Shown here: one piece after another, positions 3,036 to 45,650 of the stretch | Position numbering within the stretch: position 1 is the first letter of the stretch | Layout of the letters: each line of letters starts with the position of its first letter | DNA from: Halichondria panicea | Taxonomy: Eukaryota > Porifera > Demospongiae > Suberitida > Halichondriidae | DNA: 64,000 bases | Assembly (NCBI RefSeq): GCF_963675165.1 | Contig: NC_087377.1 | Coordinates: 14,628,198 to 14,692,197, forward strand | Reading direction: 5' to 3' | Program-made: the position numbers and the translations under genes | The notes under the pieces: model-generated | The model's input: the letters and a program-made list of their open reading frames with translations, nothing else | Database searches by the model: none | What the model was told of the DNA's origin: nothing

Positions 3036-3157
3036 TTATTTCCTCACTTGTCCATAAGCTTCATTAGACTCCACTTGAATGTCTTGTGTTCTTGGTGTCA
3101 TTGCCAGATCAACTTCCTCGTATGCTGGACCAGCTGGGGTTATTGGAACTTCATTGC
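3036..3157 (-). other. tyrosine-tail exon of receptor A
   Basis: The exon encodes PAGPAYEEVDLAM, then NEAYGQVRK and a stop. Receptor E ends in an almost identical exon (43972-43836). Cadherin receptor H ends in a related one (SPVYEEV...NQAYESVRL). The two Y-x-x-V sites are candidate phosphotyrosine docking sites, but the residue at -2 does not match a strict ITIM. Confidence 0.8.
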
Positions 3158-6100
3158 CTGCCAAATCATAAATACAAGATATAAAATTATACATTTGATA
3201 TGTCGCAAATAAATCCTCTTACTTTTTTTTTCCTTTGTGATAGTGACTACTAAGAGAAATATGACGACCAGTAAGATCAGTACCACCACTAGAGCAACAA
3301 AACCTCCAGATAGAGCAGCAACATTCACTGCACCAGTTATTGCCACACCTATATATATATATATATATATAGGTCAATATGCAGCATACAGGCAATTAAG
3401 ATATTAATAAAGTAAAGCATGCTGGGTTAACAGTAACATTTTGCATAAGCTAACTCACAAATTGCTGCTTCTCCATCAAAAACACCAGTAGTGCTGCTAC
3501 CATCTCCAGTGCAAGTCCTTGTGTTGTTACCAACCAGAACAAACCCAGTGTCACAACTGTGGTTAGCCATGGCATTGAAAGCATAGTTGCCGTTCTCATC
3601 AGAAGTAGAACTACTGTATGTCACAAAGCCATTGGTAGGAACAGTCAAGGGAGGACAGATTATAGCTATGGTGAAATGAAGCAATATTAATGAACCAGGA
3701 GCAGTAAGTGAGTGACTTTCTGTTTAAACATAAACAAAGAATAATTATATGGGTTAACAGTAACGTTTTGCATAAGCTCACGTTCACAAACTACTGCTTC
3801 TCCATCAAAAACACCAGTAGTGCTGCTACCATCTCCAGTGCAAGTCCTTGTGTTGTTACCAACCAGAACAAACCCAGTGTCACAACTGTGGTTAGCCATG
3901 GCATTGAAAGCATAGTTGCCGTTCTCATCAGAAGTAGAACTACTGTATGTCACAAAGCCATTGGTAGGAACAGTCAAGGGAGGACAGATTATAGCTATGG
4001 TGAAATGAAGCAATATTAATGAACCAGGAGCAGTAAGTGAGTGACTTTCTGTTTAAACATAAACAAAGAATAATTATATGGGTTAACAGTAACGTTTTGC
4101 ATAAGCTCACGTTCACAAACTACTGCTTCTCCATCAAAAACACCGGTAGTGCTGCTACCATCTCCAGTGCAAGTCCTTGTGTTGTTACGAACTACAACAA
4201 ACCCAGTGTCACAACTGTGGTTAGCCATGGCATTGAAAGCATAATTGCCGTTTTCATCAGAAGTAAAACTACTGTATGTCACAAAGCCATTGGTAGGAGC
4301 AGTCAAGGGAGGACAGGTTATAGCTATGGTGAAATGAAGCAATATTAATGAACCAGGAGCAGTAAGTGAGTGATTTTCTGTTTAAACATGAACAAAGAAT
4401 ATGGGTTTACAGTAACGTTTTGCATAAGCTCACGTTCACAAAATGCTGCTTCTCCATTAAAAACACCAGTAGTGCTGCTACCATCTCCAGTGCAAGTCTT
4501 TGTTTTGTTACCAACTACAGCAAACCCAGTGTCACAACTGTAGTTAGCCATGGCATTCAAATTATAGTTGTCGTTTTCATCAGAAGTAGAACTACTGTAT
4601 GTCACAGAGCCATTGACAGGAGCAGTCAAGGGAGGACAGGTTATAGCTATGGTGAAATGAAGAAATCAGTATAATTATGACCTTCTATTAAACACGTGCA
4701 CTCAACTTACTGGTACAGACAATTTCATCCGTTTCAGACAATGAAGCCACAAATCCATTCAAGCAGCTACAGTTGAACTGTCCCATGTTATTTAAACAAA
4801 TAGAATTTTGACCACAGTTGCATTGTATGGGAGATAATCTCATGCCTCCAGGGTAACCATAAGAACTGGAAGAGCCGAATCCATACACTGAAACACCTAG
4901 AACAGCTGAGCTGTTTTGATGGCTGATAGAATGTGCTCCAGTAGACACACTCGTTCTACTTATGTGGCCACAAATCTCTCCACTTGAACAGACAACATTC
5001 CTCCAACCAGTAACAATGGAATTGTCTAACACTATTTGCGCAGTTTGAAAAAACTCAGAAGAAACATACACTGTGACATAGTTAGATAAGAAAAGAGGGA
5101 CAGCTTCGCCAAAATAATTATTTGTAAACTGCTCAATTGGAGTGATTATCATCATGAATGGGCCTCCCATGCCATCGCTGCGCTCACCATACGCATACTG
5201 TGCGACCAGTACTGGAGAAGTGGATTCAATGCTACAGAAACTGTTAATAAGGATTTCAAATTCTCTGAAGCTCCCCCCACTCTGCAACTGGAATTCACTG
5301 ACTGATACAACAGTGTTGCAGTTCACAGATACAGTTGCTGCTCGGGCACTAAGAACACGAATACGTTCACCAGAAAATCTTCCCTCGAGAGATGCCACGA
5401 GGAATTTTGAGCCCCATGTCACAGTCGGAGGCACTTGTTCAACCAGGTGGTCACAAGCCCTTACACCTTGAGGAACATTAGCACAATCAGATCCGCTAAA
5501 CACAGACAAAGGTTTGGAGCTAGTTATTCTTGTTCCTGTGAGATCGTTATCACTTTCAATCTGATATGTTTCCATACTATTTAGTATTATTGTTGAGGAA
5601 TCGAATTTGACAACAGTTTCATTTTCACAAGCCACCAACAAAATCACACTAGGACGGCTACTAATGGTGTCATAGGAGATTCCATAATATTCGTATTCAT
5701 CAACTGCCATTTTAGAACATGGTAACGCTAAATAAGCATCTGTAGTATGTTGATGGAAAGACAGCCCATACACATTGATGTTTCCGTCGGCTTCAACAAG
5801 AATCCCCTTGTTCCTTTCATTAACAGAAAAAACCTCAAAACTGGATGGAATATTTGCCCTAGTTGAAGAGGTAGAAACGTTCCCACTGATATTGATTGGA
5901 GCGATTGTGAAATTAACAGCACTTGACTCTGGGTTCGTGATAAACAAAAACAACTCTTCTCCTGGACTTTCTTGACCAGCATTTCTTGGGAAACCGACAA
6001 CAAATTTTTTGCCAGCACTTGATGACGTTACATCTAGGAAAATTTAAGGCTAAATGCATATTAATTATAGACTACAAGAAATCAGTCCTACCTGTAATTT

Positions 6101-6173
6101 GGGCATCACAAGATGTTGCAAATGTGATGATTATTGTCAATGCCAAAGTAGATCTAGCAATTCTGTAGCTCAT
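3036..6173 (-). CDS. receptor A: IgGFc-EGF-sushi x4 single-pass receptor
   Basis: Exons, each with GT-AG ends: 6173-6092, 6033-4711, 4646-4434, 4323-4111, 3994-3782, 3665-3459, 3348-3223, 3157-3036. They total 2499 nt, giving 832 residues. Exon 1 encodes a signal peptide. Exon 2 carries a complete IgGFc-binding (FCGBP N-terminal type) domain, with the [10 protein letters not shown] and [13 protein letters not shown] motifs, then a six-cysteine EGF-like module. Four single-exon sushi domains follow, all phase 1. Exon 7 encodes a transmembrane helix (VALVVVLILLVVIFLLVV) and basic stop-transfer. Exon 8 encodes a short tail with AYEEV and NEAYGQVR and then a stop. The last sushi exon uses a shifted donor (ATTT|GTGAGT) that rebuilds its final cysteine across the junction. 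An AATAAA lies at 2951-2946. Likely a surface receptor; the ligand is unknown. Confidence 0.85.
3459..4646 (-). repeat. tandem exon-intron repeat, about 329 bp period
   Basis: The four sushi exons of receptor A start at 4646, 4323, 3994 and 3665, spacings of 323, 329 and 329 bp. Repeats cover both exon and intron. The two 3'-most units encode the same first 75 or so residues, so the array expanded recently. Confidence 0.9.
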
Positions 6174-12391: not shown

Positions 12392-15300
12392 TTAATTAAG
12401 CAATCCAGCAATGTACAACTTCTCTGAGCCGAATTCAGATGCAGCAGTCTTAATGGCTTCATCTTTCATGGCACTATGATCACTTGAGTGACTTGGCTTG
12501 AGCTGAACACCACTGATCGGATTCTTGCTCTGCATAATATAGACATGATTTTCTAAGTGAATTAAGTACATGATTTTCTAAGTTGGATAGAACACTTCCT
12601 TTAGCCAATCAGTTTGCAGTATTTATGGAAAACATGATCTAAATACCTGTGTCTACTTTGTAGACATGAATTTAAGGTAGATCTATAATTATACCGGATT
12701 ATTTTTTCCTGAAGCAGAAGTTGATGTAATGCTATCCATTCTCTTTTTGCACTGCTTTAGGAAGTTTTTGTCCTAAAAATTATAGAAAAGATCTAGACAT
12801 AAAAATGCTAAAAATGTAACACATGCATGCACCTTTTCACTCCTGAGCACATGGAAGATGAATATAAACAGGCCTTGCAGTGAGTTAAAGATAGAGAACA
12901 ACCATGCAAACACAATGGTGCTGCTGTTGACTGAGAGTAGACAAAACACCCAAGTCAGCCCGAGTAATGGAAGGAGAGTTACGGTGGCCTTGAAGAGTTG
13001 TCTGCATGCATGCATGGCGCATATGCACATGCATTATAGGATCAACATGTTGTATTCATACTAAATGATGTATACACAACTGAATGAGAGTTGACACACT
13101 CACGAGAATAACTGTAAAGATTCCTTTTTTCCAGCTTGTTGCATGGTTGATTTTCTCAGATTATAGACACTGCGCAAAGCAGCCAAGAGGAAGAACACAT
13201 TCACCTGTACAGTATAGTCGTCATACAAAGGTCAACTTAAAGAGTGTTACACTCAAAAACTGGCTGCTATAATACTAAATAGGCACTGTAATTGTATATA
13301 ATCCAATGCTATAATAATTATAGAGATCTCACCAAAACAACTAGTAGCGTTGGTACAACAAATGCCCATATAGCTCCTTTATCGCCGGCACCAACAGCAA
13401 TCCAACAACTGCATTGTATGAAGGGGGAAAATAAATATTGTCAGTTGTAAAGGTTTGTAAGAATTATTTATTGGGGGAAGCGCTGTATATGCATGTTGTA
13501 ACTGCATGCAGTTATCTATAATAGAATTTGGAGACGAGGTTCCACTGGATTATAAATATAAAACTTACTACTCTTCTGTGCCATACTGGTCATGAATAAT
13601 TCCAGTAGATATAGCCACTGGTATCACTGGAACACCTGCAAGAAACATACCCAATGCACTCGACAGAATGCTATATAATTATATATATAGTCATCACATC
13701 ACGTGCATGCATGCATAAATGGATGAACCCTCCAGAGGGGTATTATAAGCAACGTACTGATTCACGCATTTGTTATGAGAGAGCTAGAGGTTGTCTTCTT
13801 TATTGTGCCCCATGGGCTGACAGTGCATGGGCAAAAAAGGACAAGCTTAGCTGCAGTTAGCCTCGTTCCCAATCGAGTTGTCTCTATTATAACACTAGGT
13901 CAACAACTAGTATATTTTTCAATCGTTCAATTAAAGAAAAATCGGCATGGGAATAATTAAGGCTATACTGAAGCTGCAGTATGACATGTGCAGTATATCA
14001 GTTTAGCCAAGCATGCAGGGAAAGTGGTTTCTCATGCACATATATTATACTGCATTCATGGTACATATTATATGCATCAATTGTGCAAAGTATAGAATCT
14101 TTAATTACCCCATCCAATAATAAAGAATATCCACCATTTTTTAGATATTCGGTTGAAGACAAGCACCAACATGAGATAGAGCATGATTCCCTCACACAGC
14201 ATCCAAAAGAACACAGTAGTGAACAGGTAATGAAGGAGAGCAGCCACAAACACACACGCTCCCTGCAAGTCATGGAGAATTATAAATACAGTATAGACTC
14301 TCGCTAATCCGGCTTTATGAATTATGGTCACCTCTATATACCGGCCGTTTCGTTAGGTACGGATTGCTATATAATACTGCACAAGATTTGCCCTGAAATG
14401 CGGCCACCTCGCTATTCCGTATATATATATTAGTCAGTTCTAACAGCCCTAAACCAGATTTTTTAATGGGATACACAATAATTATATGAGAGTATAAAAG
14501 GCCAAGTCGCAGATCCTATATAATATATACTGCATATACAGTAAAAGTTTGGAACAACAGTGAAAAATGTTTGTGAATGAGCAAAATAAGCAGAAAAGTT
14601 TGATATCTGTATAACTTTTACATCAGGCAAGGATCGTGATAATTATCATAAAAGTATACTGAAATTGGTATCTGCGATGTTATTTTGCGATGCCATAAGC
14701 ACTCGCAAAGCAAATGGAGTAGTCTTATATGTATAATTATATATAAGGCTTGCTCATAAATATGAATTTCGGCATGCATGTTGTCCATTAGGTAAACTGT
14801 ACCAGCTATACAATACTGCATAATTTATAGATACACGACTCAAGTTATACACCTCACCTTGTTGGCCACAGCTGTCTCTACTCCTGACAGGAACACCACG
14901 TAACCAAGGAGCAAAGAAATAGACAGGTTGAGATGGATGAAGTTATGAACCTTGGTCAGTAGCTCTTTTCTAAACATCAACAGCAAGGTTTTATAATGTA
15001 TATGTAAAGCTATATAATTATATAGTCCTTCAATAATTACCTCAATGTCAAGAAATAGAGGATAGACAAAAGAAGAAAGAAGATAGAGATGGAACAACCA
15101 ACATAAGTCACCACCGATAGAGCAAACCTGATCTCTGGAGTTGTGTCCTATATATATATACAAAAGACCAAGCATATATAATTATAAAGAAATTATCCAA
15201 GTATTCGCTGCACGCATGAGGCTCACATTCAGTGCTCCAGTGACATCCATTAGAACAGAAAATGCTGTGAAATGACTGCTCTCACAGACAATATCATACA

Positions 15301-18300
15301 CTCTCATTTGCTTGTCTTCATCCACACTGACTGTAATCACACCTTCCGTGGACCACCTGCTGTTGGCCGCATCACTGAAAAAATAACGATAATTGATTTG
15401 GACAACAATAAAGCACATGCAACTCACCTAGAAACACTCCAAAATACACATCTTGCATTTTCAGCAACTTTATCTGCAGAGAACTGCACACAAGCATGAA
15501 TTAGTGTTGCTTGTAAGTCCAACTACCTTTTGGGTGGTGAATCTGAAGGTTGCCTGTGCCTGAGAGTTAGTTAACTTTACATTTGAGAAGACTTGACTAG
15601 AAATAACCTGTGACACTGGTCTGGTCGTGTTCCTGTGTATATAAGCATACAATGAGACCGAGCAGAACATGATTTAGTAATGTACATTTCAAGATTGGTT
15701 TTTGGAAGAAAATCCTCCAAGTTGGAAAATAGAATGTTGACTGCTGTAACGTTCCCATCTGAAAATTGAGACAGACATGGATAAACAGATTTTGGTTACC
15801 ACCAAAGTTTATGACATACCTTGAGCGCCTCTCTCCATAAGAAGAGCAGCTGGTATCACAGTTTGGGCTGAGCCTATTTCTTCACTGACTTCGATAACTT
15901 CAGGAAAGGTAATGTTATCCAAACTAGTGGTGTCAACTTCAATAGCAGCTAGTACTGGACGGTAGATGCAAATATACTAGCTTCAAATCAACTATCTAGT
16001 AAATTAATGATAAAGTATGTATATACCGATGTTCTGTCTCTCAAGTGTGATCTCCGTCACGTTGCCTGTATCCACAGCTTCACTCCTTAGTGCCAATGAC
16101 ACATACTGACCATATAACTCAGCACTCAACAGCAATTGCTGACTCTCAGCAGCGGAATCCTGAAGTGTATTTGCATGATTATTATCTATATCTGCATGTA
16201 TTTGTACTTCTTGTAATCTTTCCCATCCTTCTGTATTCCTCTCATCCAGAACATTGTTGAGAATGTTCATAACTTCCTGCAACACTAAATAAAAGGGATG
16301 TTTTATTTAACTTATAGTCTTACTTCACTAAAATTGAGAGAAGACATGGGGCTAGCAGTCTCAACGTTTCGAACGAGGTAATTAACACTTGACTTGACGA
16401 TTATATTAGTAATGCTGAGGTCTTGGGGGAATATAGTGGAGTCTCCAGTTGCATTTACACTAGTAGCCTCCGCAAGAGCAGCAAGAAGGTTGTCAACTTC
16501 ATTCTGAGATGCATTTCTAGAAAATAGTTCACTTGCCTGAATGGGAAATAGAAAACTATAGCTGATGAAAATCGTCATGAGAACGATATATTGACTTTTA
16601 CCACTATACTGGATTCTGTTTATTACGGTGGCCGAGAAGGGTCACTCGCCTCCTCCTATCGCCACAATGAACCGCGCGCGTTTTAATTCTAAGCGCATGC
16701 ACGCGGAGTTTCCGTTGACCGGGCGCGCTTAAATATAAACGCTCGCGGTAGGCACATAAAGCGCGCGCGGTAAGAGACACACAGCGCGCGTGGTTAAATG
16801 AAGACCCGCCAACAATTTTTAAGATCAGTCTGCACAAGGTCAAAGGTCAATCAATCATGTCCTGCAGTATGCATTGATAGCCAAGGAATATCTTGCGTTA
16901 AGTAGAATCCAGATATGATTTATTAACCTTTGACCTTGTGCAGACTGATCTTAAAATTTGTTGGCGGCTCTTTGTTTAACCGCGTGCGCTTTATGTGCCT
17001 ACTGCGAGCGTTTATATTTTAGCGCGCGGTCAACGGAAAATCCACGCGCTTAGAATTAAAGTGCGTGCGGTTCATTGTGGTGGTAGGCGGAGGCAGGTGA
17101 CCCTTCTCGGCCACCGTAGTTATATAGTATATCCTTCCTCTGACATGCATGAAGTTGGATGATTATATAGACAGATAGTGAGTTGCATGCCCTACGCTTT
17201 ATAAGCCTTTGACGAAGTATAATAAATAATTATACGCTAAATAATTATAGGCCAAAGTATAATAATATACACGTGCAATGTATATATACAGTACATCCTA
17301 TAGATGACATACATTCGTGTAATAGGAAACCATTAAGCTACGCCCCTGTACGGTGTGTAGTGTAGTTGCTTACTACCCTTCATGTACTCTTGGTTTCATA
17401 TTATGAATGTGCTGTGCAATCATGTGTTTACCTGTTACCTTAATTGTATAAACACTGTTTAGTAAATACCAAAGTATAATACAGAGTCTGCAATTAAGAG
17501 TCTCACCCTGTCATTAAGTAAGCTGAATACTTCCCTAGTGCAGTTATCAATATTCACTGCTTCCCACACACCACCTAGTGTACAGAAACGAGTCGCTGTA
17601 CCTATAATGATCATATACACATCAACACAGTCACTTGGAATAATAGTGATACCTGAAGTTGTTCCATTTCCATTTTGTGGGTCGCATTGCTGAGAATAGG
17701 AAAAGCCAGCCACAGTGGCAGGGAAGACAATCCCCCATACAGAATCATGTTCAGCTTCACACTGAACCTCACCTATTATATAGAGAGAAAAACCATAATT
17801 ATAATCAAATTGAAGCAAAAATGTCTTCCATTCAGTTACTACGACCATGAACGAGTATTACTTGGCCAACCAACAAGACTGTTTATGCGTTCGCGTTGTT
17901 TGACTCCGTCCAACTAAATGAGTGTGAGGATGCAATCTCAAAATTCGACGGCCTCACCTGTGTAAAGATTACACTCGAACTGTATAGTCTAAACACATCA
18001 ATTTTAGCCAGAACGTTTTTGTCTATAGCACTGACACATAATTATAGCATATAGCACAGTAGAGTTTTGAGGGAGTATTCTCTGGTATATAATTATAGTC
18101 ATGGAATAATTATGCTCCCTTGGAAAACATTTAAGCATTGTCATTTTCATTGAGCACATTCACTCTAATGCTTGCAAAAAGGGGGGGGGGTGACATTATC
18201 AGTAGCTTTTACTGTCAGTGTGTAAGTCTGAGTTGTCACAAGTCTAGCTATGTTATGTGAAAAATAGTACAGTATCATGCATGCGCAGGCTCGATCAAGT

Positions 18301-20625
18301 AAATTTGCTCATTTCCACCAGTAATGTCATATACTTATGTAATGGAGATTGTCGGGTTGATCAGCGGCAATCAACAATTGTCCAATAAAAGCGGATTCAG
18401 ATATCTCAGCAGAATATTAAGGGAAATCAAAAAAAGTGAATCATCACTTCAACCACGAGAGCATCTTGCTGTCATTACTCACTGTAATTTTACACACATA
18501 CTATGAACGCGTACATGAAGGAACCATATGATATTCTTTTTAAACTCAACTTACCATTACAGATGAGTTGCTTACGTTCACAAATTGCTGCTTCTCCTTC
18601 AAAAACACCAGTAGTGCTGCTACTGTCTCCAGTGCAAGTTCTTGTGTTGTTACCAACCAAAGAAAACCCAGTGTCACAACTGTAGGTAGCCATGGCACTG
18701 AAAGCATAGTTGCCGTTTTCATCAGAAGTAGAACTACTGTATGTCACAAAGCCATTGGTAGGAGCAGTCAAGGGACGACAGGTTATAGCTATGGTGAAAT
18801 GAAGCAAATGAATCAGTATATCTATTGGAGCAGTAAATAATCTTCATAAGCATTAAGGTATGGGTTAACAGCATAAGCTTACGTTCACAAATTGCTGCTT
18901 CTCCATCAAAAACACCAGTAGTGCTGCTACCATCTCCAGTGCAAGTCCTTGTGTTATTACCAACCAGAACAAACCCAGTGTCACAACTGTGGTTAGCCAT
19001 GGCATTGAAAGCATAGTTGCCGTTTTCATCAGAAGTAGAACTACTGTATGTCACAAAGCCATTGGTAGGAGCAGTCAAGGGAGGACAGGTTATAGCTATG
19101 GTGAAATTAAGCAATCAGTGTATAATTATGGTCTTAAGCTAATTAGCGCTCAACTTACAGTTACAAACTAGTTCATCAGTTCCAGACAATGAAGCCACAA
19201 ATCCATTCAAGCAGTTACAGTTAAACTGTCCCATGTCATTCAAACAAATAGAATTTTGACCACATTTGCATTGTAGGGGAGATAATCTCATGCCTCCAGG
19301 GTAACCATAAGAACTGGAAGAGCGGAATCCATACACTGAAACACCTAGAACAGCTGAGCTGTTTTGATGGTGGATAGAATGAGCTCCAGTAGACACACTT
19401 GTTCTACTTATGTGGCCACAAATATCTCCACTTGAACAGACAACATTCCTCCAGCCAGTAACAATGGAATCATCTAATAATATTTGTGCAGTTTGAAAAA
19501 ACTCAGAAGAAACATACACCGTGACATAGTTGGATACGAAAAGAGGAAATGCTTCGACAAAATAGTTATTTGTAAACTGCTCAATTGGAGGGATTATCAT
19601 CATGAATGGGTCTCCTACGCCATCACTGTTACCACCATATGCATACTGTGCAACCAGTACTGGAGAAGTGGATTCAATACTACAGAAACTGTTAATAGGG
19701 ATTTCAAATTCTCTGAAACTTCCTCCACTCTGTAACTGGAATTCACTGACTGATACCACAGTGTTGCAGTTCACAGCTACACGTGCTGCTCGGGTACTAA
19801 GAACACGAATACGTTCACCAGAAGATCTACCCTCGAGAGATGCCACAAGGAATTTTGAGCCCCATGTCACAGTTGGAGGCACTTGTTCAATCAGGTGATT
19901 ACAAGCCCTTATATTTTGAGGAACATTAGCACAATCAGATCCACTAAACACAGACAAAGGTTTGGAGCTTGTTATTCTTGTTCCTGTGAGATCATTATCA
20001 CTTTCAATCTGATATGTTTCCATACTATTGAGTGTTATTATTGAAGAATTGAATTTGACAACAGTTTCATTTTCGCAAGCCACTAACAAAATCACACTAG
20101 GAAAGTAACTATTAATGGTGTGATAAGAGATTCCATAATATTCGTATTCATCAACTGCCATTTTAGAACATGGTAACGCTAAATAAGCATCTGCACTAAG
20201 TGAATAAAAAGACATCTCATACAAATTAATGTTTCCGTCGGCTTCAACAAGGATCCCCTTATTTCTTTCATTAACAGAAAATACCTCAAAACTGGATGGA
20301 ACGTTTACCCTAGTTGAAGAGTTAAAAACGGTCCCACTGATATTAATTGGAGTGATTGTGAAATTAACAGCACTTGACTCTGGTTTTGTGACAAACAAAA
20401 ACAGCTTGTCTGCTCCTTTTTGACCACCATTTCTTGGGAAACCGACCACAAATTTTTTTCCAGCACTTGATGAGGTTTCATCTAGGATTAATGGACAATT
20501 CATGCAAGAACTATACAATTATCTAAGACTACATTCCTACCTGTAATTTGGGCATCACAAGATGTTGCAAATGTGATTATGATTATTGTCAATGCCAAAG
20601 TAGATTTAGCAATTCTGTAGCTCAT
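12392..20625 (-). CDS. receptor B: IgGFc-EGF-sushi-HormR-GAIN adhesion GPCR
   Basis: Twenty-three exons: 20625-20541, 20481-19159, 19095-18883, 18788-18576, 17772-17653, 17601-17507, 16536-16324, 16276-16208, 16159-16027, 15954-15820, 15758-15686, 15632-15527, 15483-15428, 15374-15227, 15147-15041, 14969-14858, 14262-14109, 13635-13569, 13408-13333, 13204-13104, 13001-12833, 12772-12695, 12529-12392. Sum 3984 nt, 1327 residues, all junctions in phase. Order: signal peptide, IgGFc domain, EGF, two sushi, HormR-like domain ([29 protein letters not shown]), GAIN region, GPS, seven TM helices, Ser/Thr-rich tail. Family B2 hallmarks include [14 protein letters not shown] (TM3), YCWIAVG (ECL2) and [10 protein letters not shown] (TM6). 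The joining of ectodomain and 7TM is inferred from phase and from the same order in C. The last sushi exon could extend in phase to 18555. Confidence 0.8.
12833..15374 (-). other. GPS and 7TM segment of receptor B
   Basis: GPS exons 15483-15428 and 15374-15227 give ARCVFW...W...EGV...[15 protein letters not shown]. Cysteines 1 and 3 of the usual four are present; the GC and CxC partners are V and S. The cleavage-site triplet is H-F-T instead of the usual H-L-S/T. TM1 is in 15147-15041, TM2 in 14969-14858, TM3 in 14262-14109, TM4 in 13635-13569, TM5 in 13408-13333 and TM6-7 in 13001-12833. Confidence 0.85.
14282..14440. repeat. decayed DNA-transposon fragment in TM2-TM3 intron
   Basis: The sequence ACTCTCGCTAATCCGGCT and GGTCACCTC resembles ends of Tc1/pogo-type elements. 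The same relic sits at the same place in receptor C (24195-24345), so it predates the B/C duplication. The assignment is tentative. Confidence 0.35.
16623..17119. mobile_element. foldback MITE with about 225-bp inverted arms
   Basis: Arms beginning TACGGTGGCCGAGAAGGGTC converge on a short spacer, giving almost complete self-complementarity over about 500 bp. It lies in the intron between HormR and GAIN exons of receptor B. The same intron in receptor C (about 26462-26490) has the uninterrupted site CTGTTTATATAG, so the insertion duplicated TTA (16620-16622 and 17120-17122) or TA. A TTA target suits PIF/Harbinger; TA would suit Tc1/mariner. No transposase frame is inside. Confidence 0.9.
17851..18054 (+). 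other. conserved plus-strand open frame in intron, copy 1
   Basis: A 67-codon frame without ATG, containing [20 protein letters not shown] and ending at TAG. Receptor C has the same frame open for 69 codons (27731-27940), with an in-frame 6-nt difference. It may be an exon relic of an antisense gene or chance conservation after duplication. Confidence 0.25.
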
Positions 20626-21955: not shown

Positions 21956-21964
21956 ATTAATTAG

Positions 21965-28200: not shown

Positions 28201-30177
28201 TAAAAGCGGATTCAGATATCTCAGCAGAATATTAAAAAAAGCGAATCATCACTTCAACCATGAGAGCTAGGATATTGTTGCCATTACTCGCAGTAATAAA
28301 GCACTTTTACACACATGCTATGAACGCGTATATGAAGGAACCACATGATAGTAAATGAATCAGAGCAAGCAGTAACCGACTTTCATAAATAAGGCTATAG
28401 CTACATTAAAACATGCATCGGTTAACAGTAGTGAGCTTACGTTTACAAATTGCTGCTTCTCCATCAAAAACACCAGTAGTGCTGCTGCCATCTCCAGTGC
28501 AAGTCCTTGTGTTGTTACCAACCACAACATACCCAGTGTCACAACTGTGGTTAGCCATGGCATTGAAAGCATAGTTGCCGTTTTCATCAGAAGTAGAACT
28601 GTATGTCACAGAGCCATTAGTAGGAGCAGTCAAGGGAGGACAGGTTATAGCTATGGTGAAATGAAGCAATCAGTGTATAATTATGATCTTTAATCACTCA
28701 ACTTACCGTTACACACGACTTCATCTGTTTCAGAAAATGAAGCGAAAAATCCATTCAAGCAGCTACAGTTGAACTTTTTCCTGTTCTTCAAACAAATAGA
28801 ATTTTGACCACAGTTGCATTGTATCGGAGATAATCTCATGCCTCCAGGGTAACCATAAGAAGTGGAAGAGAATCCGTACACTGAAACACCTAGAACAGCT
28901 GAGCTGTTTTGATGGTGGATTGAATGAGCTCCAGTAGACACACTTGTTCTACTTATGTGGCCACAAATCTCTCCACTTGAACAGACAACATTCCTCCAGC
29001 CAGTAACAATGGAATCGTCTAATAATATTTGTGCAGTTTGAAAAAACTCAGAAGAAACATACACCGTGACATAGTTTGACACGAAAAGAGAAAAAGCTTC
29101 GACAAAATAGTTATTTGTAAACTGCTCAATTGGAGGGATTATCATCATGAATGGCTCTCCCAAGCCATCACTATCTATACCATATGCATACTGTACGACC
29201 AGTACTGGAGAAGTGGATTCAATGCTACAGAAACTGTTAATAGAAATTTCAAAATCTCTGAAACTCCCTCCACTCTGCAACTGGAATTCACTGACTGATA
29301 CCACAGTGTTACAGTTCACAGCTACACTTGCTGCTCGGGCACTAAGAATACGAATACGTTCACCAGAAGATCTACCCTCGAGAGATGCTACGAGGAATTT
29401 CAAGCCCCATGTCACAGTCGGAGGCACTTGTTCAACCAGGTGGTCACAATCGCGTATATTTTGAGGAACATTAGCACAATCAGATCCACTAAACACAGAC
29501 AAGGGTTTGGAGCTAGTTATTCTTGTTCCTGTGAGATCATTATCACTTTCAATCTGATAGGTTTCCATACTATTGATTGTTATTATCGAGGAAGCGAATT
29601 TGACAACAGTTTCATTTTCACAAGCCACTAACAAAATCACACTAGGAAAGTAACTATTAATGGTGTGATAAGAGATTCCATAATATTCGTATTCATCAAC
29701 TGCCATTTTAGAACATGGTAACGCTAAATAGGCATCTGTAGTGTATTGATGATAAGACATCCCATAAACATTGATGTTCCCGTCGGCTTCAACAAGGATC
29801 CCCTTGTTTCTTTCATTAACAGATGATACCTCAAAACTGGATGGAATGATTACCGTAGTTGAAGAGTTAGAAACGTTCCCACTGAAATTAATTGGAGTGA
29901 TTGTGAAATTAACAGCACTTGACTCTGGGTTTGTGATAAACAAAAACAACTCGTCTTCTCTTTGATCACCATTTCTTAGGAAACCGACCACGAGATTTTT
30001 GCCAGCACTTGATAAGATCTCATCTGGGATTAATGGACATGCAGTTCGACTTACATGCATAATAATTATGGACTACAAGGATTCATTCCTACCTGTAATT
30101 TGGGCATCACAAGATGGAGCAAATGTGATTATGATTATTGTCAATGCCAAAGTAGATCTAGCAATTCTGTAGCTCAT
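22241..30177 (-). CDS. receptor C: IgGFc-EGF-sushi-HormR-GAIN adhesion GPCR
   Basis: Tandem paralog of receptor B with one sushi exon. Exons: 30177-30093, 30023-28707, 28650-28441, 27028-26915, 26869-26775, 26394-26182, 26134-26066, 26015-25883, 25826-25692, 25629-25557, 25507-25402, 25356-25301, 25247-25100, 25039-24933, 24875-24764, 24154-24001, 23588-23522, 23361-23286, 23124-23024, 22948-22780, then 22725-22648 and 22417-22241. Through TM7 the exons total 3540 nt, in phase throughout. GPS reads [14 protein letters not shown]. After TM7 the splice donor is mutated: the bases after GAAAAA are TT where D and B have GT. Translation would then run 17 codons into the intron and stop at 22726, dropping the usual tail although its two exons remain open. 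If the normal donor were used the protein would be 1264 residues; with read-through about 1197. Confidence 0.8.
22565..22622. repeat. perfect hairpin in receptor C 3' intron
   Basis: Arms CCCAGGCCGAGTTTTCGCTT and exact complement around a 4-6 bp loop. A related hairpin with GTTTTCACTTTTATAT arms occurs at 63755-63832, so it is a dispersed short element. Confidence 0.8.
27731..27940 (+). other. conserved plus-strand open frame in intron, copy 2
   Basis: Counterpart of 17851-18054 in the sushi-HormR intron of receptor C. It stays open for 69 codons despite about nine amino-acid differences. Confidence 0.25.
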
Positions 30178-34221: not shown

Positions 34222-35600
34222 CTACAGTCTGACTGATTCATATGCCTGGTTAGTGGTGAGTTCAACCTCTTTGGGTGACACCTCCTCATAAACAGGACTA
34301 GTTGGTGAAGTGGGTCCTATGTTAGCTTGTCCTTCAGCTGCCTTCTTAAGAGAGCAAAGATGCGTTACTAGGAGTCCAGTGAGGAATCCGATGGTCATGA
34401 AAAAAGCTGCTGTAACAACCACGCTAACGGAAACAGCTAGACCAAGGTCAGTATCAGTGAATACCAGGGGGGAAGGTTGAGCTGTATATTGGTGGTTCAA
34501 TGTACATACATGAATACATGTATTCATTATAATTATACACTTGCCTCCGGAGACAATTCCTTCAGTGTTAGTACTACTGGACGTCTCTTCACTTACATCT
34601 GGTATTATTGTAATCATCAGCATTGCAATATCTTGTAAGCCACCACTATCAAGGCAAACTAAAGTAGCTGTAACAACAGGAGAATTCTCAAAATCAAGAT
34701 TTTCTTGGAGAAAAACGGTTCCGTTTCTCTCATTAGGTATGAGTACTGGAGCATTGGGCTCTCCAACAGTAATACCACTAAATTCTCCCACACCATTGCG
34801 GTCAGCATCAGTACACACCACAGTAATCAAACTAGTACCAATGGGGACTGACTCAGATACGGTAACAGTGTACTTGTCTTGCTCAAACATCGGAAGATTG
34901 TCGTTGTCTGATCTAATAAGTAATACAACATCTAAAGATGGGCAATCTGCTTCCACACGGTTTCCATCACAAACCCTTATTTGGTAAGTCACACGTCTAA
35001 CTGAGGTAACTCCGGAATCAAGTTCAATTGTTTGAGTTAGAATTAGCGAGCCATCCATACTCAAACTGAAATCTTGATTAAGCTCTGGTGGGTTTGCTGA
35101 ACTTGGTAAGAATCGTAGTACTCCATCTGGTCCGCTATCCTCATCACTCACAGTGTATTGTCTAGTACCAGAAGAATCTCTTGCTACTAAGACCATACCA
35201 AATGGGGTTAGCTCTGAGATGCTAACTTGAAGGGAGACATCACTGAAAACAGGTTTAAACTCGTTCACAGGTCCAACTAAGAACGTGACACTAGCTGTTG
35301 CATTGATAGACGAATCAGAATCATAAGAACAGGATACGTCAAATATGTACTGTTGGGTTTGTTCGTAGTCCAAAATTTCCTCATTTTGAAGGCTAAGAAT
35401 TCCAGAGCTACTATCAAAAACAAATGGTACGGATACTGGCTGTAGTATTGCATATGTAACAGGACCAGCAAGACTAGCACCACCATTCTCAGTACATGTC
35501 ACAGTACCAAGCGATTCCCCATTATTACCAGTGTTTTCAGGAGAAGAAAACTGATACACGTTTCCAGTGTTCAGCACATTGAACTGGAGGCACTGGGAAC
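34222..35600 (-). CDS. receptor H: cadherin-type receptor with tyrosine tail
   Basis: The exon 35600-34545 begins at an acceptor (TTTTGCAG|GTTCCC), so upstream exon(s) including the signal peptide are not identified. It encodes cadherin-like repeats, with linker motifs GPVNEFKPVF and SDNDNLPMF and a final repeat with CTDADRNGVGEFSG. A 63-nt intron with a GC donor (34544-34482) is likely; retaining it keeps the frame. Exon 34481-34222 encodes a transmembrane helix (VSVVVTAAFFMTIGFLTGLL) and a tail with SPVYEEV and NQAYESVRL, then a stop. The tail matches those of A and E although the ectodomain does not. Its membrane position and adhesive role follow from cadherin knowledge; the partner is unknown. 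Confidence 0.75.
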
Positions 35601-35931
35601 CTGCAAAAGTGTATGACATAACAGTAGTACTTTGCATGCAATAGTGAATATGATTATCAATAAAGAATAAACAGCCTTTAACATAATGACGTGGAATGGA
35701 AAGGTGAGTTGAAATTCATAGCTATACTGAATTTTGGTTTAGTTGGAAGTTCTCAAAATGTGAGGATGTATAATATGCACTATCAAGAGTAGACGAGTGT
35801 CGAACTACCGATTGATAGCTCTACACACAAATTGTGCACAAGGTATATAACATGACTCAAATGGGATAAAATATATATATATGTTAACTATGATGTTTTT
35901 TTTGATAGTTGAGAACAATGGCATCGTGTTA
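35601..35931. other. 5' flank or first intron of receptor H
   Basis: No convincing signal-peptide exon is seen here. Confidence 0.4.
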
Positions 35932-38088: not shown

Positions 38089-39661
38089 TTGCACCTGCGG
38101 TGCTTTCATTCAGTACAGTATTCAGTATAGTCTCCTGTTACAAACACAATACAATAAACAGTACAAGCTAGGAATATTCAACTCACCATGACACACACTA
38201 TCACCTGCATGGCTATTATTATATTGAGTGATAAATCACATGCACTTTAACGGGGGAAAGTGTTTGCTGTAGCAACAGATGTGATACATGGGACCAGACT
38301 TGCTATTTATATCACAGTCTTCAGTGGTGGCCATTAGATTAGGGCTTGGCAAATTATGCTAGCAGGGAGACTTCTAGCAACTAGCATAAAATTGAGGGCA
38401 CTAAATCAGAATAATTTTACCCTCCGAGTCTGATAGAACTAATTTCTAATCTTATAATGTAGCTAGATAGACATCTATTACTGTATTAAGTAGGGCTGTA
38501 AGCACTATATATAGCCACTAGGCAGGAGTATATATATTTTCTCTTTTGGCACTAGACTAAGAGGATTATATTTCATGCAATTTTTCTGTATAAATGCTAC
38601 CTCAGGTATAGCCTCGGTCCCGTGCCGATTTTTTTAAATAGAACGAAGTTGGCTAGAGACAACGAGGCTGCATGGGAATGAGGCTACCTCAGGTAGTGCT
38701 ATCAATACATCTACAAATAAATTGATGTCTTTAAACTGGAATAATGGGTACACCAAACTGGAATAATAGGCTGACTTTTTGAGAATAGTAATAGAAAGCC
38801 AAGCCCTAGTGGCTATTAGGACACACTATTTGTTGAGTTAATGATCTTTACCTAACATGTAAAATGTGTAAAAGACTCTACATAATTATTATTATGTGCA
38901 ATTATATTTTGTGTAAAAGCACCTCTCACTATAAATGCACTTAAGTGCACACAAACCACAAGCATGCACAGTACAATAGACAATATCAATGCTGTCATGC
39001 ATAATTACATTCTCACCCAAAAATGTGCCTAATCTTAGTTAGCCTAATGTAATTTGCTAATTATTCCTATGCATGCATGGCTCTTTCCCACTTCATTGCT
39101 TCCATGCTTTTGCATTCCCCGCCAATCATAGCAATGGTTCACATCATTATTTTAATGTGTAGCATAGATGCATATATAGAGTGACGTCAGTCAGACAGTC
39201 TATATCATCTATTATAATTTTATGCTTATAATCAGCAATTATAGTTACATATACTTATACGTATAATTACGAATACTATACTACATTTTATTATCATTAT
39301 ACAGATATGGCTGCATCGATCTATACCATTTTTTGATTTGACATGTCAGAGTATCGTTTTAATTGACAGTTGCTAAATTTTTGACTATAGCATGTAGTTT
39401 GCAGAAGTCACTGCTATAAGGAATAGCAATGCTGCTTGCGTATGTAGAACCATGCAGATGTTGTGTTCATAAGGATACATTCAAAAATAACAGTGAAAGC
39501 TGTTGACAATACAATGGCACCATAATTATTGATAAACAAACGTCGTCGAATATACGTTCCATCACTAGCTACTCATGTATCTGATTTCTCCATGCCTGGT
39601 TAAACTTCAACTCAATGTTTTGCTTTGCCGTCTAGGGTAGGACAAGCAAATCTTTATTACT
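38089..39661. other. intergenic, no gene seen
   Basis: AT-rich sequence. A partial inverted repeat lies near 38610-38690 (AGCCTCGG / GAGGCT). No exon is supported. Confidence 0.45.
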
Positions 39662-41542
39662 TCCATTTTCTCACTTGTCCATAAGCTTCATTAGACTCCA
39701 CTTGAATGTCTTGTACTCTTTGTGCTGTTGCTAGACCAACTTCCTCATATATACTGGACCAGCTGGGGCTATTGAAACTTCATTGCCTGACAGTTCGCTT
39801 TCTGTTGAGCGACCAAATCATGCATGTACAACATATATAAGTGTACAACATAAGTGTGATTTTGTGCACCCGTTAGTTGCCCTCACTTTTAGTTTGTTTG
39901 GTGATAGTTAATAAGAGAACTATCAGCACCAAGACAATCAGTACTACCACTATAGCACCGACAAAATCTCCAGCTAGAGCAGCAACGTTTCCACCAGTTT
40001 TTGCCATATCTGCATGTATTGTGTATTATATATAGGGGCATGGCATGCATGTAGATAATTATTGAGGCAATGAACTTATACACTCCAATAGAGCCAGGTC
40101 AGGATCCCAGAGACCAGAGTTGTTACAAGTGAAGTCGCTGCACCCACCAGTAAGAAATCAGGATCACATTGGATGGTAAGGACAGAGCCCACGATTGAGT
40201 TAATGTTCTACAAGTTAATGAGTAATGCTCCATTGAGTGGAGGGGGCAGGCAGGATACAGGAAACTATAGAGGTGTGCGAAGAATTTCATGTACACAAGT
40301 AATTCTAAAATAGCTTACTAGATTCATTTCTGCAGACGATCTCCCCTGGTTTATTGTCCCACTCTCCTGTAGTTAGACAGGTGGCACTCATTATCTCCTC
40401 AGGAAAGAGTCCATTGTCACACTGGAATTCGAAGGTCACTTGTGTACCGGGTAGAGTTGGTACTGATCTAGCACGAATGATCACTGATGGTGCCATTATG
40501 TGGTGGGGATAGTGGAGCCTTGCAGTTCATTGGAGGGGCTATTATAGAGATGCAACAATTAATTCATGCACGATGAAGAAATTAACTTACGAGGTGTGGG
40601 AGGAGACGAGGTGATTAGTAATCTACACTCAAAAGTGTCAGGATTCGGACTCCATATCAGTGTACCCTCACATGTCACCATCGTAACAACAGATACATAC
40701 CCAGCGTCACACTGAATAGTTATTGTTGATCCTGGCAATCTGCTGGAGACTGGTCCAAAGGCTCCATTCATGGGCCTTTCAGAACAGGACAGCCACCTGC
40801 ATGAGAGCTAGGGAACTATCCACAAAATTGCTATGCAAATCACGTTCCAATTCTGAAGTTGTACTCAGCGATTGTATACTGTTCCCAGCACAATTGGTAG
40901 CCACAACACTGACAGTGTAGTCCATATTGTATTGAGCAATCACAGTGACAGAGGTGGATGTGAGGACAGTTGCAGAGAGCTGGGCCGGAGGTGAGATGGT
41001 CACTGTATATAGGTGAGGTCATCTCTACCACCAGTCTCAGTAGGAGGGTCCCAACCAACAGATACATTAACATCATTGGCTGAGCTGCTCAAAGTGGAGA
41101 TACTATAAACCCAGTTGGTGGTGAAGTAGAAACTGTAAAATAAGAGATTGTAAAAAGCCTCAATTCAAAAAAGAGATTGTAAAAAGCCTCAATTAATCCT
41201 CACTTGCTGTCATTATAGTGAGTTCTTCCCTCAACTCCACCTGTAACACAGGAAAGCAACCAATAGTGGTATCCTGTGCTGCAGGGAAACGCAAACTGGA
41301 GGTGATCATTGAACTTGTGGAATCAAATATCGCTGATATGACTGTGTACTGATCTTGTAGGATTGGTAGTAGGGTCGTACTACTAAGTCTTATCTCCCTA
41401 GTTGCATCAGGCACATCCCATTCCAACAGAGCACCATCAATCACAGACACAGACAGTGTGCAAGTGGGTGAGACCACATCTCCAACACAGGAAGTCCCAG
41501 TGTAGTCACGTGTCAAACCACCCAGCACAAACGGTATCATAC
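39662..41542 (-). pseudogene. pseudogene F: Ig-like/FN3/sushi receptor
   Basis: Decayed paralog of receptor E in the same exon order: Ig-like exon 41542-41204 (still open), FN3 about 41130-40810, sushi about 40790-40575, sushi about 40530-40322, sushi about 40280-40085, TM about 40010-39893, tail about 39790-39665. Relative to E the FN3 exon has two short TA-type insertions that shift the frame. The third sushi has a TAG stop after ALLINL. The tail exon reads GTATATATGAGG where E has GTATACGAGG, again +2. The TM exon is open and closer to that of receptor A, so the copy may be a chimera. Confidence 0.8.
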
Positions 41543-42399: not shown

Positions 42400-42535
42400 G
42401 ATAAAAAATATTTATTTACTTGTCCGCATATAAGCTTAATTGGTGTTAGTGTTGAGAATTCCTCTTTGAAACTCTTCATAAACAGGACCAGCTGGTGTAT
42501 TAGGCTGTCCTTCAACTGCCGGGGAGTATACACAT
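42400..42535 (-). pseudogene. relic tyrosine-tail exon
   Basis: Minus-strand frames give AVEGQPNTPAGPVYEEF and, after a break, a CGQVNK end that parallels YGQVRK. It is a decayed copy of the tail exon of A, E and H; the EGQ lead resembles H. Confidence 0.6.
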
Positions 42536-42550
42536 GCATGCGGGTGCTGA

Positions 42551-42629
42551 TGCCTCGGTGGATGTGTCAAGGCTACATATTAACTGCTAGTAGCTTTATG
42601 TTATGTAGGTTTGGCACATCCACCGAGAC
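42551..42629. mobile_element. deleted copy of the TGCCTCGGTG element
   Basis: Left end TGCCTCGGTGGATGTG and right end CACATCCACCGAG enclose about 50 bp that match the right end of 37555-38088. The inverted similarity continues outward (GGTGCTGA / TCAGCACC), so the true termini may be a few bases wider. Confidence 0.6.
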
Positions 42630-43835
42630 CTCAGCACCTGCGGTGCTTTCATTCATTGTCAGTATTAAAATAGAGTTTGTTTTATCCCTCATTCCAAACA
42701 GTATATAGATCTATAATACGCCCTATATAAGGCATGCATACCATTAGTTGATAATCTGAGATCATTGTATCTGATCCAGTAAATTGAGTTTGTTTCATTC
42801 CTAATTCCAAACAGCACAATGCATGTATGTACCCCACTGTTGACTGATAATTTTGAGGTGTACATGCACTACATTTTAAACTGAAAAAGAAGCAATGAAT
42901 GTCTCTAGCTGGAGCATAAATATTAACCTATACCCAAGGCCTATATAGACAGTCAGGAGGTCCATTGGGCATGCAGCTAGCAAAGTGTGGGTGTACTGAT
43001 CATTACATGCATATAAATACCACTGAGCCAGAGGTTGCAATTCTATATAATTATATAGAATGATAAATTATAGGTATGTGTACTTCTAAACCATACATGG
43101 CTCAGGATCGATTGACTAGAGCGAACCAAAGCCAAGCTTAATATTGGAACAGACAAAGCAACGATCCATGCAATGCTTAATTTTCGGTGAACTTAGACAA
43201 ACCTTTATCATTATAAACTCAAACGCTTACGCTCGCCCCATGACACCTTATGTCACTCTATAGTTATCAACAATAAGCAATATTTTTTTATAGGTCCTGT
43301 AAAATTAACAATACTGCATCATAATAACACATCAAATTTGTTTATAGAGAGAGGGCTGTTTTGTTATTGTAAAAGTTTTGTGCTCACTCTCCCTATAGAA
43401 AAACTTCTTTAAACCTGTCACTAAGAAGCATGCTCCTAAAACACAAAAATGCGGTGACTAAACAAGATCTGCATGAGTATTAAATTATTACAATGGGGTG
43501 TTTGCACGGTTTATCTTAGATTGTATCTCAGTAGATCAAAGATGCAGTTGCTAAATTGACCTATATAATTATGCAGTATTGCATGCTAATTAAGGAATAG
43601 CATAATTATGCTGCTTGTTTAGCCATACAATCTGTATGCATGGTTTAGCCAGCTGCTGTGATCATAAAAGTTACACAACTGTGAAAGCAAACTGTTGACA
43701 TAGAATTGAAATAAACAAACAGTTCAGTTCAATTCAACTTAGTGTTTGATTTCTCTATAAGCCTGGTTCGACTGCATCTCAATGTTTCGCTTTACCGTCT
43801 ATAGAGTATATACGTAGGATAATCATTACACAAAT
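42630..43835. other. intergenic, no gene seen
   Basis: AT-rich 3' flank of receptor E. It includes a 20-bp perfect palindrome around TATATAATTATATA at about 43040-43060. Confidence 0.5.
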
Positions 43836-45650
43836 CTAATAATGTAGCTTTATGGTCCTCACTTGTCCATAAGCTTCATTAAACTCCACTTGAATGTCTT
43901 GTGATCCTGGTGTCACTGCTAGACCAACTTCCTCGTATACCGGACCAGCTGGGGCTTTTGGAGCTTCATTGCCTGACAGTTGGCTATCTATTAAATTTTA
44001 GATAGAGTTAATACAATGTATCGCAATCAATTTTCAATTATAAACTGCCTTTTACTTTTTCTTTTCTTAACGATAATCACTAAGAGAGTTATCACTACCA
44101 GGACAAACAGTAATACCACTAACAGACCGCCAGTAACACCACCAGTTGCAATTGGAGCTGCTACACCTATATAAAGGCCATTATGCAGCATACATGCATG
44201 CAGGCAGGTATAGACACAAATCAATGAACTCACACTCTAATAGAGCCGGGTCAGGTTCCCAGAGACCAGAGTTCTTACAAGTAACAGTCGCTGCACCCAC
44301 CAGTGAGAACCCAGGATCACATTGAAAGGTAATGACTGAGCCCTCGGTCAAGTTAGTGTTCTGAGACGTGGTGTTGCGTAATATTCCATTGAGTGGAGGA
44401 GCGGGCAGGACACACGAAACTATATACAAGGAATATGATTATGAAACTGAGTACACGAGATGAAGAATGCACACGAACAATGACGTTACTTACTAGGTTC
44501 GTTTCTGCAGACGATCTCCCCAGGGTTTTTGTCCCACTCTCCTGTAGCTAGACAGGTGGCAGTCATTATCCCCTCAGGGAACAGCCCATCGTTACACTGG
44601 AAGGTAACTTGTGTACCGGGTATAGCTGGTACTGAATTATCACTGATAGTGCCGTTCTGTGGTGAGGATAGTTGAACTGTGCAGTTCATTGGAGCTGTGA
44701 GGTAAAAAATAAGTTTGTATACAAGCAAGAATTCAACTCACAACTTGTAGGAGGGAGTGTGGGTAGTGATGTACACTCAATAGCCTCAGGGTCTGGACTC
44801 CACATCAGTCCATCATCACATGTCACCATTGTAACAGGAGACACATAACCAGCATCACACTGGATGGTTACCGTGGATCCTGGCAATCTGCTGGTGGTTG
44901 GTACAAACGCTCCATTCATGGGGTTGGTCAACACAGGACAGCCACCTGCACAAGAGAGGGGTCAGTGTAGTGTGCTGTTTAAAGACGATGTCAACTCACT
45001 AATCCTAAAGTTGTACTCAGCTGTTGTACTGTTCCCAGCACAGTTGGTAGCCACAACACTGATAGTGTAGTCCACATTGTATTGGGTAATCACAGTGACA
45101 GAGGTGGATGTGAGGACAGTAGCAGAGAGCTGGGTCGGAGGTGAGACTGTCACTGTGTAGGTGAGGTCATCTCTACCACCAGTCTCAGTAGGAGGGTCCC
45201 ACTGTACAGATACACTGATTTCATTGGCTGAGCTGTTAAGAATTGAGTCACTGAATCCATTTGGTGGTGAAGGAGCAACTTTAAAGTGAGAGATTCGTAA
45301 CATTGTGAAACGCGTCAATACAGCCTCACCTGCTGTCAGTATGGTGAGTTCTTTACTTAACATTGGTTGTAGTACAGGAAGACAACTAATTATGATTCCA
45401 TCTACTGCAGGGAAACTCAAACTGGAGGTGATCATGGAACTGGTAGAATTGAATACAACTGATATGACAGTGTACTGATCACGTTGTAATGGGAGCTCAG
45501 TTGTCTCATCAACTCTTAAATCCCTAGTTGGATCAGGCACATTCCATTCCAGCAAAGCCCCAGGCACTGTGCATGTGATGGAGACCACATCTTCAACACA
45601 GGGGGTCCCAGTGTAGCCACGAGTCAGACTACTCATCACTGATGTTAAAC
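43836..45650 (-). CDS. receptor E: Ig-like/FN3/sushi x3 receptor, 5' incomplete
   Basis: Exons 45650-45330, 45278-45000, 44945-44742, 44694-44494, 44419-44234, 44166-44056, 43972-43836, all joined in phase 1. The first is an Ig-like module (TPCVEDVVSITC...LLEWNV...ISCLPV). FN3 follows (SVSVQWDPPTETGG, ISVVATNCAGNS), then three sushi domains, a transmembrane helix (GGLLVVLLFVLVVITLLVIIV) with KKRKSKR, and a tail with GPVYEEVGLAV and NEAYGQVR. The last sushi cysteine is completed across the junction to the TM exon. The first exon starts at a phase-1 acceptor, so a signal-peptide exon should lie upstream. None is evident before the transposon nest at 46336, which may have disrupted or distanced the 5' end. 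Confidence 0.8.

Follow-up and report, generated by a model that had tools for sequence, protein, structure and literature searches.

How do receptors that differ in their extracellular parts come to carry the same short cytoplasmic tail? The question is raised by a stretch of 64,000 nucleotides (C1:14628198-14692197; hereafter the window), on the minus strand of which related tyrosine-containing tails are found in three receptor genes, A (3122-3045), E (43937-43860) and H (34290-34222), and in pseudogene F (39749-39672). A preliminary description had proposed that these tails, together with a relic at 42400-42535, represent one module spread by exon shuffling among receptors with unrelated ectodomains. 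All five are present where described and are related beyond chance, and the proposed family with one tail, spread by shuffling of exons or cassettes, is strongly supported by the size of the family, the junctions of chimeric genes and a tree of FN3 domains. Taken as a whole, the locus is probably best explained as part of a large recombining array of putative single-pass type I receptors, in which a few kinds of outer part are swapped over a common short tyrosine tail, a shared cassette whose output would be the docking of SH2 proteins.

The genome searched comprised 131.5 Mb in 39 contigs. Three tail classes were defined: class I (the A, E and F type), class II (the H type) and class III (the type found at C1 9.3-9.98 Mb). 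L-numbers (e.g. L043) label tail or ectodomain loci across the genome and R39 is pseudogene F. All window features given below lie on the minus strand.

Extent of the tail family

A pattern search of the window revealed no YEEV...N-x-A-Y-x-x-V pair beyond the tails of A, E, F and H. The relic (42415..42519) translates as a class II tail interrupted by a stop, reading AVEGQPNTPAGPVYEEFQRGILNTNTN, the stop and then AYMRTSK. Used as a query against the genome, the tail of E (37 residues) gave 141 matches at E <= 10, of which 30 reached E <= 1.5e-4. Chance similarity of the tails was rejected, the reversed E tail having no match in the genome at E <= 10, an empty result that alone proves nothing. 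For a class II tail query the best 150 of 280 candidates were scored, all of which lie on C1 between 11.27 and 14.93 Mb (worst E = 1.9e-13; one with an internal stop). Class III comprises nine places from the E tail search, six of which were read (L030, L035, L036 and L086-L088). The family is far larger than the window-only set of the preliminary description, and the tail searches of the genome returned well over 150 further places. As read by eye, a hydrophobic segment followed by basic residues precedes the tail in A, E and H and at 60 of 70 class II loci.

Exchange of ectodomains

The kinds of ectodomain named previously were borne out by Pfam for A (IgGFc) and H (cadherin), both of which passed the cut-off. 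The IgGFc_binding domain of A (4691..6043; PF17517, E 4.8e-52) has an EGF-like end below the cut-off, and is followed by four near-identical sushi-type exons in tandem (3430..4670), which were read by eye; the related sushi exons of L055 pass Pfam. With their introns, these exons of A form a tandem repeat of ~329 bases, probably a recent duplication. The E ectodomain (44231..45651) was assigned from alignment, Pfam and predicted structure as Ig-like, FN3 and three sushi-type exons. Its FN3 domain scores 22.3 bits, below the Pfam cut-off of 25, and its sushi exons were again read by eye, the test by Pfam having been made on relatives. The Ig domain is weak by Pfam; the N-terminal domain of E is predicted to be a beta-sandwich (pLDDT 88), for which an MHC-II chain and a nanobody were the two Foldseek matches within E <= 1e-3 (TM-score below 0.5), with many of Ig type just above, and this predicted structure is supportive, not decisive, of an Ig-like fold. 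The ectodomains, described earlier as unrelated, are in part connected, since E has its membrane-proximal sushi exon in common with the IgGFc genes L053-L055.

The clearest exchange is seen in H. For its cadherin ectodomain (34598..35735), five close copies lie on C7 and C16 (77-83% amino-acid and 84.7-89.4% DNA identity), which continue in frame into further sequence and a different transmembrane (TM) segment and show no match to the TM and tail of H. H departs from these copies by position 34598 at the latest, and its match to the class II locus L081, which takes in the intron, begins at 34557, so that the ends of the two matches place the junction at 34557..34598. The TM and tail of H occupy a single class II exon (34222..34481; ending VYEEVSPKEVELTTNQAYESVRL-stop); the twelve best class II matches are 72-80% identical. 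The cadherin copy extends upstream of its presumed exon start near 35600, and since three of the five C7/C16 copies also match there, it was probably made at the DNA level. Evidently, H is a recent fusion in which a cadherin ectodomain from another chromosome was joined within ~40 bases to a class II TM and tail exon. Over the cadherin part, the H branch has a dN of 0.050 and a dS of 0.141 (four of the five copies, L120 left out), which suggests that this part is under constraint. A direct H query was used for this analysis, as a cadherin family search was swamped by giant cadherins elsewhere (best 150 of 570 candidates) and was uninformative on H. A search upstream of H for a 5' exon or signal peptide gave none that was convincing. 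Downstream of the cadherin copies (L117-L121; C7 4.88 Mb, C16 4.99 Mb) lie open reading frames (ORFs) with other tyrosine motifs, such as YSEV, YVQL and YDDP in L121, perhaps tails of their own.

In E the breakpoint coincides with an exon end. Over 1,490 aligned positions, its exons for Ig, FN3 and three sushi domains share 81.8% DNA identity with those of L043, and this identity breaks off precisely at the end of the third sushi exon; the tail of L043 is class II, unlike that of E, which is class I. The third sushi exon, TM and tail of E resemble those of the IgGFc genes L053-L055 (69-78%).

Across the family, tail type is no more clustered on the FN3 tree than under shuffling. The tree, built from 34 domains (7 with class I and 27 with class II tails), implies six changes of tail class against a shuffled mean of 6.5, and 205 of 500 shuffles were as low; at least three changes are forced by starred branches, and a single origin was recovered in 0 of 200 bootstrap trees. 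R39 was dropped from this tree as a short fragment, and L085, which was kept, has a long branch and may be a false FN3. An IgGFc exon lies within 2.2 kb upstream of 16 of 31 class I tails, a pairing for which the 34 of 122 genomic IgGFc places near tails were used. Other class I tails follow Ig-FN3-sushi ectodomains of two kinds (E, L122, L123 and L127; L056, L125 and L126), the sushi domains being mostly read by eye. The class II ectodomains (n=37) include 15 with an E-like FN3 (one a 34-residue fragment), 14 of the L041/L056 kind, four L047-like and one L046-like, with none recognised within the stretch for three. Like tail exons are therefore found on non-homologous ectodomains, with breakpoints at (E) or near (H) exon ends, as in an exon-shuffled family, and module swapping is well supported.

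At L124 (C1:14743200-14746100) a class I tail and a sushi-like exon lie downstream of an ORF which we take to resemble an LDL-receptor YWTD repeat. Low-complexity repeat stretches precede the tails of L052 and L042, with runs of N in L052.

Probable splicing and tyrosine sites of the tail

The preliminary description read two Y-x-x-V sites in the related tails. For A, E and F the second of these was rejected: its 'V-R' is most likely a misread splice donor (GTGAGG or GTGAGA) directly after NxAYxQ, so that its V appears to be intronic, and a third site in the next exon, where the coding frame resumes, was missed. In A, a TM exon with a phase-1 start (3223..3348; translation VAITGAVNVAALSGGFVALVVVLILLVVIFLLVVTITKEKK; exon ends by eye) is followed by tail exon 2 (3048..3157; ending PAYEEVDLAMTPRTQDIQVESNEAYGQ), a GT-AG intron of 49 nt (2999..3047; GTGAGG...CCCAG) previously read as VRK-stop, and tail exon 3 (2927..2998; TAKRNIKLQSNQAYEEININTST-stop), which carries a third tyrosine site; the spliced reading would be TAKRNIKLQSNQAYEEI. 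E is arranged likewise, with a TM exon (44056..44166; ends by eye), exon 2 (43863..43987; ending PVYEEVGLAVTPGSQDIQVEFNEAYGQ), a GT-AG intron of 64 nt (43799..43862) and exon 3 (43739..43798; TVKRNIEMQSNQAYREIKH-stop), both introns being called from sequence only. In pseudogene F, the class I TM and tail exons (39675..40010) are frame-shifted before YEEV and exon 3 (39569..39631; TAKQNIELKFNQAWRNQ...) has decayed, with Trp in place of Tyr.

The same arrangement recurs across class I. NxAYG[QK] is present in 28 of 30 tails (L025 and L026 are without it) and in all but one of these 28 GT stands directly after NxAYxQ, the exception being L004 with an AYGQ repeat in between. From the other 27 tails 25 introns were read, the acceptors of L006 and L015 having been missed by the pattern. 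All 25 start with GT (15 GTGAGG, 6 GTGAGA, 4 others), the closing AG being part of the pattern, and they measure 36-64 nt, with a length modulo 3 of 1 in 14, 2 in 6 and 0 in 5. Exon 3 mostly reads (T/M/A)-A-K-x-N-I-x-L-Q-S-N-Q-A-Y-x-E-I and is recognisable in the same frame, whatever the intron length, in 23 of 25 cases (with a stop in L009 and L016; not in L008 and L014). Its dN/dS is 0.34 in frame versus 1.09 and 0.96 off frame (17 of 27 loci, the rest lying outside the pattern and some being decayed), and the third site is Y-x-E-I/L in 12 of these 17. By eye, class III is built likewise, with AYGK, an intron and AVRCSKGIQ(L/V)QSNQAYEL... in L030, L035 and L086. Because the frame is kept in exon 3 whatever the length of the intron, the A/E-class tail would carry three tyrosine sites (Y1-Y3), the third having decayed in F.

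In class I, Y2 is followed by G-Q and then mostly by T, M or A, and the +3 position is hydrophobic for Y1 and, in 12 of the 17 copies, for Y3. The second site of H, NQAYESV, is truly coded and resembles class I Y3. The conserved spacing noted previously holds within a class, with 22 residues from Y1 to Y2 in 24 of 27 class I tails and 17 in most class II tails; it does not hold between classes (16-22 residues, H itself having 16). The tail exon of L012, L013, L017, L018 and others (C1 16.5 Mb) contains two or three repeats of the YEEV unit, and the number of candidate docking sites therefore differs between paralogues.

Constraint on the tail

The tail module is under constraint among paralogues. 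For class II, 70 of 74 rows were collected (L086-L088 belong to another class and L089 lies outside the pattern), of which 60 were used, 10 being without an aligned TM. Pairwise averages over these 60 loci gave a dN/dS of 0.17 for the tail, 0.81 for the spacer and 0.56 for the TM. The collecting pattern fixed five columns (Y1, V(+3), L, N(-3), Y2) and limited the residues allowed in another six, so that the constancy of these columns is partly imposed; in a control without the 11 columns, the dN/dS of the tail was 0.33, a weaker figure that is still below that of the TM. The pattern is fitted by 70 of 71 class II loci, the exception being L089 (NQSYGPV). Glutamate follows Y1 at +1 in 70/70 and at +2 in 69/70 tails, where the pattern also allowed D/K and K, respectively. 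In class I, pN/pS is 0.39 for the motif codons versus 1.47 for the linker (23 of 27 tails; the pattern named both tyrosines). The preliminary description had held that its proposal would fall if no further matches were found and the tyrosines were relaxed among orthologues; among paralogues, over 150 more places were found and the tail motifs are constrained.

Proposed mechanism and alternative explanations

The cassette, the size of the family, the constraint and the swapping are read from the sequence, and on them a mechanism may be built in which splicing of exon 3, phosphorylation, SH2 docking and a role in recognition are inferred. The proposed output cassette consists of TM and tail exons bearing short linear motifs: P-x-Y-E-E-V near the membrane and, distally, one or two copies of I-x-L-x-x-N-x-A-Y-x-x. 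The distal motif is NQAYGPV/L at or near the C-terminus in class II, and NEAYGQ, an intron and then NQAYxEI in most of class I. Recombination has joined this cassette to Ig-FN3-sushi (at least two kinds), IgGFc-sushi and cadherin ectodomains. Ligand binding or clustering of the ectodomains may trigger phosphorylation of the tail tyrosines by a Src-type kinase, after which the pYEEV and pY-x-E-I sites may dock SH2 proteins, bringing many recognition specificities into one pathway.

Docking of SH2 domains through YEEV and YEEI is plausible. The Src SH2 domain is reported to prefer I/L/V at pY+3, with pYEEI as the best site (PMC7337045). Both YEEV and YEEI/YGEI agree with this preference. Judged by sequence alone, the pattern of a Src-type SH2 ligand is present at Y1 as YEEV in 21/23 class I tails (YKEV in two) and in 69/70 class II tails (YEKV in L073), counts for which the collecting patterns had already named Y and V; class I Y2 does not fit. 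SH2 domains were matched 71 times in the genome, a count by exon and so not a gene number.

Several observations weigh against this explanation. Class I Y2, which after splicing mostly has T/M/A at +3, would be a poor Src-type site, and Y3 is lost in several class I copies (His in L005, L012, L013 and L018; Trp in F). Exon 3 has stops in L009 and L016, is unrecognisable in L008 and is out of frame in L014. The undivided class I stretch has a dN/dS of 1.26, so that class I constraint is confined to the motifs, and several class I copies are decaying. In class II the tail dS (0.35) is below that of the TM (0.81), and homogenisation by gene conversion therefore probably adds to the conservation. 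The dN/dS values are pairwise averages over paralogues chosen by similarity, and near-identical copies lying far apart might have been duplicated in the assembly.

The main rival, which we regard as unlikely, is that the tyrosines are chiefly endocytic sorting signals bound by AP-2/PTB adaptors, the shared tail setting surface level and uptake, as in scavenger-type receptors, and phosphorylation being secondary. Sorting motifs take the form Y-x-x-hydrophobic for AP-2 and N-x-x-Y for PTB-type clathrin adaptors, and class II tails are compatible with both: position +3 of Y2 is V, L or F in 70/70 collected tails, and 70/71 loci have the V three residues after Y1 and the N three residues before Y2 that the collecting pattern named. 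However, the glutamates at +1 (70/70) and +2 (69/70) of Y1 are unneeded for sorting and fit the preference of kinase and SH2 domains (PMC7337045), and class I Y2 lacks a hydrophobic +3 except for Met in some copies.

It is improbable that the likeness of the tails comes only from common descent and from gene conversion within a single tandem array, true exchange of modules playing no part. The confinement of the best 150 of 280 class II matches to C1 11.27-14.93 Mb and the lower dS of the tail would suit this explanation, but it is already contradicted for H, whose cadherin relatives on C7 and C16 have a different TM and do not match its TM and tail, and for E, whose identity with L043 stops at an exon end, and the tail classes are scattered on the FN3 tree.

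Two further proposals are very improbable. A Phi-x-Phi C-terminus is the rule for PDZ ligands, and the class II end (e.g. VGL, VRL) might be the main functional element with the tyrosines accessory, as V, L or F stands at +3 of Y2 in 60/60 aligned tails with L two columns on in 48/60 (V in 6/60); yet constraint is comparatively weak in the last three columns of the tail (pN 0.10-0.23), ORFs stop earlier in L034 and L038 and run on in L061, L067, L112 and L114, and class I tails end differently (TST, KH and similar). A two-state signalling switch, with intron retention in some transcripts yielding ...NEAYGQVRK tails and splicing yielding NQAYxEI tails, would accord with the in-intron stop of the retained frame in 22/25 introns (often VRK-stop) and with the exchange of tail motifs by alternative splicing reported for Botryllus FcoR loci (PMC12065747), but the introns vary in length and phase, L005, L014 and L024 have no in-intron stop, and close paralogy explains the shared VRK-stop.

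Neighbouring genes

The window holds two further IgGFc genes, one at 19.1-20.5 kb with 86% identity to the IgGFc region of A and one at 28.7-30.1 kb with 85%. Downstream of both lie exons of hormone-receptor-like and GPS type (below the cut-off) and of 7tm_2 (above the cut-off), and IgGFc and sushi thus appear to be joined to hormone-receptor-like, GPS and secretin-type seven-transmembrane (7TM) exons at 13900-20518 and 23000-30072. Their order and strand suggest that the IgGFc and 7TM exons belong to the same genes. As the IgGFc domain of A is so similar to those of its 7TM neighbours, one ectodomain is found on a tyrosine tail and, apparently, on an adhesion-GPCR body.

Tentatively, and with more doubt than confidence, the array may be viewed as the core of a sponge complex for self/non-self recognition. 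Several megabases of a single chromosome would act as a nursery in which recombination in the germ line repeatedly joins new ectodomains, even a cadherin from elsewhere, to interchangeable output modules. These modules would be the two-tyrosine tail, the three-tyrosine tail and the GPS-7TM body, so that one outer part could drive either phosphotyrosine or G-protein signalling.

Near-identical FN3-like exons (ITNYTxTYWRVGSN...) at ~50780-50897 and 59317-59433 of the window suggest another duplicated receptor pair. On the plus strand of C1 at 14.98-15.12 Mb, more IgGFc matches adjoin the array, without a match in the E tail search.

Comparison with known systems

The analysis yields a list of candidate receptors and a short test peptide, YEEV...NQAYGPV, with PAGPVYEEVSPKEEIELNTNQAYGPVGL and NIELQSNQAYGEIK as candidate peptides. 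In a literature search on sponge receptors, tails, allorecognition and shuffling, no title or abstract opening names such a tail, subscription journals lying mostly outside the search. The scale of the array, its mixed ectodomains, the capture of a cadherin and the ectodomain common to 7TM genes appear to be new. If the host is a sponge, tail-sharing receptor arrays would extend to one of the deepest animal branches.

An immunoreceptor tyrosine-based inhibition motif (ITIM) has the form (S/I/V/L)-x-Y-x-x-(I/V/L), and an activation motif (ITAM) consists of two Y-x-x-(L/I) with 6-8 residues between. Both were rejected for the tails described here. Residue -2 of Y1 is Pro in 69/70 class II tails, the one ITIM fit being L069 (Ser), and Pro in 22/23 and Arg in 1/23 class I tails; -2 of Y2 in class II is Gln in 57, Glu in 2 and His in 1 (n=60), with no ITIM fit. 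As for ITAM, the usual class II sites are 13 residues apart with Val, named by the pattern, at +3 of Y1, and Y1 and Y2 of class I are spaced by 22 in 24/27 tails. Vertebrate ITIM/ITAM receptors are alike in placing short repeated Y-x-x-hydrophobic sites on diverse ectodomains; the -2 residue and the spacing differ. Clustered protocadherins also combine many ectodomains with one common cytoplasmic part, shared by splicing to constant exons, whereas here every gene carries a tail exon of its own.

Sponge pattern-recognition repertoires, e.g. that of Halichondria panicea, include sushi, FN3, Ig, IgGFc-binding and cadherin domains among their receptor architectures (PMC8242945). These domain kinds are shared with the array, and the available portion of that account does not mention a shared tyrosine tail module.

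Closest in plan, with a likeness that would be one of architecture only, are Botryllus FcoR and Hydractinia Alr. The FcoR family of the Botryllus schlosseri fuhc locus, as far as the available part of its account goes, comprises 53 loci paired with fester genes, some with a canonical ITIM or hemITAM (PMC12065747). Like the array, it is large and clustered. Its members, type I receptors, have ectodomains of Ig and sushi type and may carry the core Y-x-x-I/L/V in their tails, and its tail motifs are exchangeable, there through splicing and between alleles (PMC12065747). The array described here differs in its >150 places, its non-ITIM/ITAM motifs and its IgGFc, FN3 and cadherin ectodomains. Hydractinia Alr genes are similarly clustered invertebrate receptors with tyrosine motifs in their tails, although Alr candidates are reported with ITIM/ITAM (PMC12065747), whereas the array has mixed ectodomains and non-canonical motifs. 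Invertebrate allorecognition receptors with unrelated ectodomains have been argued in the same account to converge on the same tyrosine-motif signalling (PMC12065747), and the locus described here shows a route to such convergence, in which constrained tail cassettes receive ectodomains exchanged at or near exon ends, with H as one recent fusion.

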